A DNA stretch of 64,000 nt from Amphiplicatus metriothermophilus (GTDB lineage: Bacteria > Pseudomonadota > Alphaproteobacteria > Caulobacterales > Parvularculaceae): the NCBI RefSeq assembly GCF_900199215.1, contig NZ_FZQA01000003.1, positions 310,001-374,000 on the forward strand. The letters are read 5' to 3'. Position numbers and translations under genes: made by a program. Under the pieces are notes generated by a model, which saw only the letters and a list, made by a program, of their open reading frames with translations, was not told the origin of the DNA and did not search any database. Each line of letters starts with the position of its first letter. Positions within the stretch are counted from its first letter, which is position 1. Shown piece by piece: positions 51,809-61,576 of this stretch.

Positions 51809-52033
51809 ACTGTCATGCGCGCAGAAATAAATATCGCATACGGAGAGAACGGGTCGGGATTTTCCCGCGTCGCGTGTCGTTTCGTGCGAAACGCGCAAGG
51901 GCGAATCGTTCGAAACTCGCCGCAAAGCCGCTGCGCGGCTGAATCAGCGCGATTCCCGCTCTCTCCAAATCGTGCGATTCCGCTCGGAACGGGCGCCGCG
52001 GCGCGCGCGCCGCGGCGACCCGCTCCGCGCCCC
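51809..52033. other. Intergenic region with clustered GANTC sites
   Basis: 225 bases between convergent genes, with no open frame of note. GANTC occurs at 51903, 51941, 51951 and 51976, four sites in 78 bases. Small inverted repeats include CGGGA-TTT-TCCCG near 51855 and GTTTCG-TG-CGAAAC near 51879. No toxin gene accompanies the antitoxin-like gene to its right. Confidence 0.6.
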
Positions 52034-60069: not shown

Positions 60070-60183
60070 GATGCTTATCAGGCTCGTTTCGAACTGCGGC
60101 GGGGACCTGTGATCGGGCGAAGGAACGGCGCGGGGCGGCCGTTCATGGCCGGCCATACAATCGCAAATACGCGTTGACAGCAA

Positions 60184-60198
60184 GAACAGGATGTGAAC
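60184..60198. promoter_or_regulatory. LexA box between uvrA and ssb
   Basis: GAAC-AGGATGT-GAAC is a perfect GAAC-N7-GAAC (reverse of GTTC-N7-GTTC). It lies in the 226-base space between divergent uvrA and ssb, 114 bases from uvrA and 97 from ssb, with TTGACA at 60174-60179 next to it. Such a shared site is known at uvrA-ssb in proteobacteria. Confidence 0.88.
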
Positions 60199-60295
60199 GT
60201 TTTCGGCGGACGCTGAAATTTTCGCCGCAGGCGCCGATTGAGCGGCCGGCGAAACGGCGCCATAGCCGCTGGGAAGCAATCAAGAGGAGCTCGTC

Positions 60296-60748
60296 ATGGC
60301 CGGAAGCGTCAATAAAGTCATTCTGATCGGCAATCTCGGCGCCGATCCGGAGGTCCGGCAGATGCAGGACGGCCGTCCGGTGGTGAACCTGCGCCTGGCG
60401 ACGTCGGAAAGCTGGCGCGACAAGAACACCGGCGAACGACGCGAACGGACCGAGTGGCATCGCGTGGTGATCTTCAACGAGGGTCTCGCGCGCATCGCCG
60501 AGCAGTATCTGCGCAAGGGCTCGAAGATTTACGTCGAAGGCCAGCTTCAGACGCGCAAGTGGACGGATCAGAACGGACAGGATCGCTACACCACCGAAGT
60601 CGTGCTGCAGGGGTTCAACTCGGCGCTGACGATGCTTGACGGTCGGCGCGACGGCGGCGGCGGCGATTTCGGCGGCGAGAACTCGTCCAGCAGCGGACGA
60701 TCCGGAGGCGGTCAGTCCTTCGAACTCGACGACGACATCCCCTTTTGA
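60296..60748 (+). CDS. ssb: Single-stranded DNA-binding protein
   Basis: 150 residues. OB-fold: [81 protein letters not shown] Gly/Ser-rich linker ([20 protein letters not shown]) leads to the acidic tip DDDIPF that docks repair and replication partners. Start follows GAGGAGCTCGTC. Divergent from uvrA over the LexA site. Confidence 0.97.
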
Positions 60749-60749
60749 C

Positions 60750-60849
60750 GAGTCGAACACGTGCAGGTGATTCGAATCACCTGACTGCGACACGCGGTTT
60801 CGAACGTTCGAAAGCGCGTTCGAGAGTCAAAATCGGGCGAATCCGAATC
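60750..60849. promoter_or_regulatory. GANTC cluster with two perfect palindromes upstream of the H1-like gene
   Basis: Six GANTC sites in 100 bases (60750, 60769, 60774, 60824, 60839, 60845); one more lies at 60965. Two exact palindromes are nested in it: CAGGTGATTCGAATCACCTG (60764-60783, 20 bp) and TTTCGAACGTTCGAAA (60798-60813, 16 bp). GANTC is the CcrM methylation target. A weak promoter (TTGAAT 60917-60922, 18-base spacer, TTTATG 60941-60946) precedes the gene. Which proteins bind the palindromes is unknown. Confidence 0.6.
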
Positions 60850-60980
60850 ACATCGCGGCGAAAAACGCACAAAAAGTGCAAAAAAGTGCCTGTGCGGACG
60901 CTCCGTGCGCGCGCAATTGAATACTTTTTTAGCAAATTGATTTATGGTGCGGCTTTCGAACGTCGATTCGGAGGTAACCC

Positions 60981-61315: not shown

Positions 61316-61391
61316 CGATCATCGGCGACACTGTCGATGATCGCGCAAGGGGGCTCTCCCCAATTCGTCGCTCGCATGGAGCGAACCAACC
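61316..61391 (+). ncRNA. Candidate structured RNA (three hairpins before a terminator)
   Basis: Three consecutive stems: CGATCATCG/CGATGATCG (9 bp, 61316-61343), GGGG/CCCC around CTCT (61350-61361) and TCGCTC/GAGCGA (61368-61384), directly followed by the terminator at 61392. It may be a stand-alone small RNA or the 3' part of the H1-like mRNA. No promoter is clear, and no match to a known RNA family could be made by eye. Confidence 0.4.
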
Positions 61392-61422
61392 AAAACCCGG
61401 CGCGGGCCCCGCGCCGGGTTTT
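61392..61422 (+). terminator. Strong Rho-independent terminator
   Basis: AAAACCCGGCGCGG-GCC-CCGCGCCGGGTTTT, a perfect 14-bp stem with a 3-base loop, followed by CGTTTTTCG. The stem symmetry would let it work in both directions. Confidence 0.9.
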
Positions 61423-61576
61423 CGTTTTTCGCCCCTCCTGCGCGCCGCGAGCCCGTTCGGCTTTGCGCAACGGGCGAGGCTCGCCCCTGTCCTCGTGCGA
61501 GATTGCGCGCGGGCCGAACGCCTGTCAGGCTTGTCTCGCTCGCCGCAATGGCGAATGCACAGGGGAGGGTCGGTCG

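Follow-up and report, generated by a model that had tools for sequence, protein, structure and literature searches.

The 232-bp spacer between ssb and the gene for a small histone H1-like protein in Amphiplicatus metriothermophilus contains seven GANTC sites, six of them within exactly 100 bp, and is best explained as a two-module control region of the H1-like gene, a reading to which we give a probability of about 0.6. We infer from the sequence that the first module, the upstream cluster of sites mainly in the YGAKTCG context, is methylated in vivo by CcrM and that its methylation state is read, most likely by GcrA together with the sigma-70 RNA polymerase; transcription of the H1-like gene would then follow the passage of the replication fork. 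The second module would be a hairpin in the leader, which is predicted to hide the Shine-Dalgarno (SD) sequence and would keep translation low until it is opened. The conserved CcrM-site cluster ahead of the H1-like gene is very probably functional, and expression of this gene probably keeps time with the replication of the chromosome. The features of the region are collected in Table 1, in which positions are those of the window, i.e., the whole 64-kb stretch of DNA (64,000 nucleotides) that was analysed.

Table 1. Features of the region around the ssb-H1 spacer, with positions in the window.
Feature	Position	Strand	Description
ssb, single-stranded DNA-binding protein	60296..60748	+	Upstream neighbour; Pfam SSB, 3.6e-39; NCBIfam PRK06341 above cut-off
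Cluster of six GANTC sites	60750..60849		Exactly 100 bp; starts at 60750, 60769, 60774, 60824, 60839 and 60845
20-bp palindrome CAGGTGATTCGAATCACCTG	60764..60783		Contains two GANTC sites
16-bp palindrome TTTCGAACGTTCGAAA	60798..60813
Conserved block ATACTTTTTTAGCAAATT	60921..60938	+	Probable core promoter or activator site
Likely -10 hexamer TATGGT	60943..60948	+	From reading of the relatives' alignments
Predicted hairpin GCUUUCGAA-loop-UUCGGAGGU	60952..60975	+	From folding; buries the SD sequence GGAGG (60970..60974)
Seventh GANTC site (CGATTCG)	60965..60969		Within the leader hairpin, immediately 5' of GGAGG
K/R/A/T-repeat, histone H1-like protein, 82 aa	60981..61229	+	Composition; ssb synteny
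Probable intrinsic terminator	61392..61430	+	3' of the H1-like gene; strong G+C hairpin, then T runs

The H1-like gene and the GANTC sites upstream of it

The H1-like open reading frame looks like a real gene, and its start (MAVKR or MAVRR), its ribosome-binding site (RBS) and its position behind ssb are kept in relatives. Low-complexity K/R/A repeats run along the whole of the small, lysine-rich protein. Bacterial histone H1-like, lysine-rich proteins carry tails of the Hc1/AlgP type, and the K/R/A/T repeats are common to these proteins and the one described here; the likeness is one of composition, with no match to Pfam or NCBIfam at 0.001. "H1-like" is thus a label for composition, and the protein would presumably serve in DNA packing. 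An HU-like identity was rejected, since the protein has no PF00216 match and all four PF00216 matches in this genome map elsewhere. Across genera g1 (to which this genome, G000, belongs) and g2, lengths between 45 and 153 aa are found, apparently by gain and loss of repeats. A sequence search with the protein gave matches in only 10 of 61 genomes, which is attributed to its low complexity.

A simple scan found no plus-strand terminator between ssb and the H1-like gene, so read-through from ssb is possible. The terminator downstream of the gene (z = -5.56 on folding of 61380-61440) is absent from the list of the same scan, which ended at 61420. Four matches to known RNA families were obtained at E <= 1, all far under the gathering scores, on the minus strand and around this terminator. 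The region had no match among phage records, and a phage origin was therefore rejected.

The initial annotation, which counted six GANTC sites in 100 bases upstream of a histone-like gene, is borne out, with a seventh site to be added; its expected site number, calculated for 66% G+C, was slightly off because the spacer itself has 51% G+C in a genome of 66%. GANTC is avoided overall, as the 64-kb window contains 164 sites versus a mean of 380 in shuffled sequences. In a sample of 392,127 bp, which takes in the window and belongs to a draft genome totalling 3.16 Mb, there are 957 sites (2.44/kb), and only 1 of 389,942 positions, namely that of 60750-60849, has six sites per 100 bp. The sites are more frequent in spacers than in coding sequence (3.55/kb versus 2.35/kb in the sample), in agreement with the more than 1.5-fold enrichment in intergenic DNA of Alphaproteobacteria (PMC3973325). 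Measured against the intergenic rate, p is 5.5e-5 for 60749-60928, the top-ranking one of 190 intergenic stretches delimited by a rough gene caller that ended the spacer early, at 60928. Given an estimated few thousand spacers per genome, this p value by itself is suggestive, not overwhelming; the recurrence in relatives described below is stronger evidence than the value from a single genome. In dinucleotide shuffles of the 232-bp spacer, 1.21 sites are expected versus the 7 observed, and none of 1,000 shuffles reaches 7.

YGAKTCG surrounds 4 of the 6 cluster sites and 5 of the 7 spacer sites versus 211 of the 957 in the sample, and 3 of the 16 TGATTCG sequences in the sample lie inside the ssb-H1 spacer. 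Three other stretches of the sample have at least 4 GANTC sites per 100 bp. By reading, that in locus L193 lies inside a coding frame and that in L194 near an IS-like gene; the third, in the window at 51903-51980, is a second cluster of four sites in 78 bp, in the spacer before a small minus-strand gene that is antitoxin-like by reading.

Conservation of the spacer and geometry of the probable promoter

By synteny with ssb, an H1-like gene was located within 1 kb downstream of ssb in 20 of 59 genomes: all of those in genera g1 (9/9), g2 (7/7), g4 (3/3) and g6 (1/1), none of the 15 in g3, g5, g7 and g8 of the Parvularculaceae, and none of the 24 that represent four further families of this order. 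These counts and those upstream of ssb cover 59 of 61 genomes, and one f5 locus (L059) extends only 237 bp beyond ssb. Among 80 named loci inspected for the pair beyond the family, for most of which the end of ssb was fixed in place and some of which were short downstream, the single positive one belongs to Parvularculaceae.

GANTC is present in 19 of the 20 ssb-H1 spacers, the one without it being that of the g4 genome G024 (66% complete). With stop and start codons included, the number of sites per spacer is 3 to 9 in g1 and always 3 in g2; the g6 spacer has 2 and the g4 spacers have 0, 4 and 3. Shuffles were compared for 31 of 35 genomes that bear the conserved block described below (G005, G027, G067 and G068 were left out, as their spacers were not delimited). 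The start codon was placed too early in L199 and L203, each of which is therefore counted with one leader site too few. In 8 of the 9 g1 genomes, including this one, 42 GANTC sites were found versus 10.82 expected, and 37 in the YGAKTCG context versus 4.37; for g2, where 22 of the 26 genomes with the block were used, the corresponding values are 63 versus 7.08 and 57 versus 2.38. The relatives behind these totals are not independent of each other. The single g6 genome has 2 sites versus 0.64 expected, and the excess is non-significant in G008 (p = 0.096) and G013 (p = 0.114) taken singly. Conservation in sister genomes, the check proposed with the initial annotation, thus holds for site content, which is in excess in g1 and g2, while the positions turn over. 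The sites lie mostly far upstream in g1, and g2 has one GANTC right after ssb and a pair ahead of the RBS. This g2 pair, CGAATC-at-GATTCG, and the 20-bp palindrome of G000 are two arrangements of one unit.

The pattern of base changes was followed by parsimony for the leader sites (33 of 35 genomes; G067 and G068 have no ssb in the locus). In 24 g2 and g6 genomes, the leader sites, two in number, show 6 changes, and 4 of them affect the free base N, which would fit GANTC being what is read; the support is weak because this set omits G067, in which the right-hand site was lost by core changes. Once g1 is added, the count for the right-hand site becomes 3 changes at N plus 2 at a core base, and the leader GANTC is missing in 6 of the 9 g1 genomes. 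The zero core changes at the upstream sites prove nothing, since the search pattern itself required GANTC.

Downstream of the cluster lies a block with a putative promoter role. The pattern ATACTTTTTTAG[CT]AAATT, with at most 1 mismatch, occurs in 36 of 62 family genomes (9/9 in g1, 26/28 in g2, 1/1 in g6 and zero in the other six genera), and the same pattern read backwards occurs in 2 of 62. The pattern was derived from an alignment including some of the genomes later searched. It is present once per genome, except in G072, where it is on two contigs. Alignments of the block, the larger set and folding used 35 of the 36 block genomes (G030 was left out). Conservation of this kind across three genera is odd for what would be a promoter spacer. 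In most relatives, a TAnnnT-like box follows on the 3' side of the block, and then the RBS. A simple scan of the spacer found no sigma-70 consensus pair, a result that says little because shuffled sequences give no pair either. Between the cluster and the block, an imperfect inverted repeat around CGGACGCTCCG (60890-60915) precedes a T6 run; it is kept in some g1 genomes and in g4, and an altered form is found in g6.

The GANTC cluster lies 94 to 193 bp upstream of the likely -10 hexamer, and the leader site lies downstream of it. The cluster would thus lie outside the -35 to -10 region of the conserved block and not within the core promoter, so that GcrA activation in the known geometry is not to be assumed; at ctrAP1, the GcrA footprint covers -35 to -10 (PMC3667746).

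A predicted hairpin over the Shine-Dalgarno sequence

The site near the RBS (60965) has a possible alternative explanation, namely that what is conserved close to the gene is an SD-sequestering RNA hairpin and the RBS-proximal GANTC a by-product of its pairing. We consider this slightly better than an even bet. In 35 genomes, the predicted unpaired probability of GGAGG averages 0.11 versus 0.33 with shuffled upstream sequences, and it is below 0.3 in 28 of the 35 (in 26 when the leader is shortened to 18 nt). In 18 of these genomes, no more than 5% of 100 shuffles hide the SD sequence equally well. The leaders of ssb show no comparable effect: in 17 genomes, they average 0.51 versus 0.46 when shuffled, compared with 0.05 versus 0.33 for the H1-like leaders of these 17; for ssb, whichever GGAG, AGGA or GAGG came last ahead of ATG was treated as the SD sequence. 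The six g1 genomes without a leader GANTC retain the pairing through another left arm (CUUCCG or CUCCG), and five of them are below 0.1, with G005 pairing weakly at 0.33.

Several observations weigh against the hairpin as the conserved feature. In the same six g1 leaders, 14 to 19% of shuffles are as low in three genomes and 31% in G005. The five genomes of the G065 clade and G027 have changed N, kept GANTC and broken a pair without compensation, and the SD sequence of the G065 clade (0.39 to 0.40) is hidden no better than in shuffles. The changes are one-sided because the 3' arm is the SD sequence itself, and no double compensation was seen. RNAalifold gave no consensus hairpin on an automatic alignment of the leaders. 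The hairpin would account for the leader sites at most, not for the six upstream sites. Since the leader GANTC and the hairpin are separable, the leader site is not attributable to CcrM alone, and the hairpin is no explanation for the upstream cluster. The hairpin is compatible with a reading of that cluster by CcrM and GcrA.

CcrM, GcrA and the proposed reading of the cluster

The genome encodes orthologues of both proteins, CcrM matching the CcrM structure 6pbd over residues 31-385 (9.2e-175) and GcrA matching PF07750 (1.4e-48) and 7ye1 (2.2e-38). Within the family, CcrM was found in 54 of 62 genomes (57 minus the three weak matches in G005, G076 and G084) and GcrA in 58 of 62. A cluster-bearing spacer occurs without a CcrM match in G003, G065 and G072 and without a GcrA match in G008 and G078; since all five are fragmented drafts, these absences may be an effect of assembly. 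Both proteins have matches in all four of the genera g3, g5, g7 and g8, which have no ssb-adjacent H1-like gene.

The upstream region of ccrM in this genome, inspected as a known target and not as a blind find, resembles the ssb-H1 spacer in having five GANTC sites in the 98 bp before the ATG (L147, 2353-2450), which suggests that ccrM itself may respond to methylation here; it differs in that, by reading, four of the five are GAGTC and none is YGAKTCG. According to PMC7987155, the predicted GcrA control of ccrM was lost in Parvularculales. The neighbouring ssb is among the CcrM-activated genes of C. crescentus (PMC3973325), and GANTC occurs within 130 bp upstream of ssb in 8 of 9 g1, 7 of 7 g2 and 3 of 3 g4 genomes. 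The only g1 genome without it is G000 itself (60166-60295), where ssb may thus have escaped from control by CcrM. In g7, the site is found in 0 of 6 loci counted and 0 of 4 readable, L022 and L023 having only 20 bp before ssb. That the site is missing in g3 and g7 because CcrM or GcrA was lost there was rejected: GcrA is present in 10 of 10 g3 and 6 of 6 g7 genomes, and CcrM in 9 of the 10 and all 6, respectively.

Other operators were sought as well. No LexA box GTTC-N7-GTTC is present in the ssb-H1 spacer; the nearest lies at 60184-60198, between uvrA and ssb, and a loose search for paired GTTC or GAAC at a spacing of 7, at most 250 bp upstream of ssb, was positive in 51 of 59 genomes, relatives and this genome taken together. 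The CtrA box is TTAA-N7-TTAA, and no such box with up to 1 mismatch occurs in the ssb-H1 spacer.

The direction of control that we infer for the cluster is activation, as more likely than repression. The extended motif TGATTCG/YGAKTCK is that of GcrA-activated genes in C. crescentus, and in the part of the same study that deals with B. subvibrioides it had no predictive value or preference (PMC7987155). Alternatively, methylation could repress the gene, as at the A. tumefaciens gcrA promoter, whose activity is lower when CcrM is active, also in E. coli, and which has 6 GANTC sites in the 250 bp upstream of the gene (PMC11514494). That region is similar in site number and likewise precedes a chromosome-cycle gene, in its case gcrA, and the distance of the cluster from the core promoter is no argument for GcrA activation; the sites, however, are mostly YGAKTCG, the context of GcrA activation in Caulobacter. 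We regard repression as unlikely. It is still more doubtful that the spacer is a MucR target in which MucR shields GANTC from CcrM and the sites remain unmethylated. The genome encodes a MucR homologue, the spacer is low in G+C for this genome, and the C. crescentus MucR targets include a promoter with four GANTC sites, but shielded promoters are generally not conserved between species (PMC5172544), and this cluster is. A chance cluster, or a relaxed avoidance of GANTC in a low-G+C non-coding spacer, is very improbable: GANTC is indeed commoner in spacers, but the dinucleotide-preserving shuffles of this one fall far short of the observed number, and other species show the excess again with their sites placed elsewhere.

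The two perfect palindromes are present as first described, the 20-bp one with its two adjacent GANTC sites, but as conserved control elements they do not stand, being private to this genome. Of 214 loci, 3 contain the 12-bp core of the 20-bp palindrome, and each of these belongs to G000; the 16-bp palindrome is likewise restricted to G000 loci among those compared. Both were rejected as operators because of this confinement and because perfect palindromes of at least 16 bp are frequent in the genome sample, mainly G+C-rich ones. CRP/FNR-like regulators bind GTGA-N6-TCAC. The letters of the 20-bp palindrome match this motif, but with its core absent from all but the G000 loci among the 214, an operator of such a dimeric regulator is hardly credible.

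Methylation-dependent control by CcrM and GcrA is therefore the reading retained for the cluster: the conserved site content, the YGAKTCG context and the presence of both proteins speak for it, and what has found no support are the palindromes and a position between -35 and -10. The cluster resembles the CcrM/GcrA promoters of Caulobacter (mipZ, ctrA P1, podJ, ssb and ftsZ) in having GANTC in the control region, in the YGAKTCG context and in the presence of CcrM and GcrA, and its juxtaposed pairs recall those of the mipZ promoter (PMC3667746). It differs in having more sites, in their position farther upstream of the likely core promoter and in its H1-like target. The type of control region is known, its target is unusual, and the predicted RNA element is an addition to the initial annotation. 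A literature search for GANTC and CcrM together with a histone H1-like gene found none, the titles of papers on GcrA, CcrM and histone-like proteins pointed to nothing on such a gene, and next to nothing was found that pairs Parvularcula with GANTC.

The place of the locus on the chromosome bears on the timing. In the relative G033, whose genome is a single 3.47-Mb contig, about 1.40 Mb separate ssb from the DnaA match (a 508-aa frame), so no long hemimethylated period is to be assumed; if the origin is near dnaA in this genome, the locus would be terminus-proximal and hemimethylated only briefly. As a tentative and broader proposal, which we hold to be possible but less probable than the two-module reading itself, a multi-site CcrM switch in Parvularculaceae may time an H1-like packing protein with the replication fork and, with the leader hairpin as a gate, close a loop of replication, methylation and packing. 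If this is true, methylation would control a protein that coats the methylated DNA, possibly including access to GANTC, and chromosome packing would join the CcrM/GcrA programme, which has received little study in this family.
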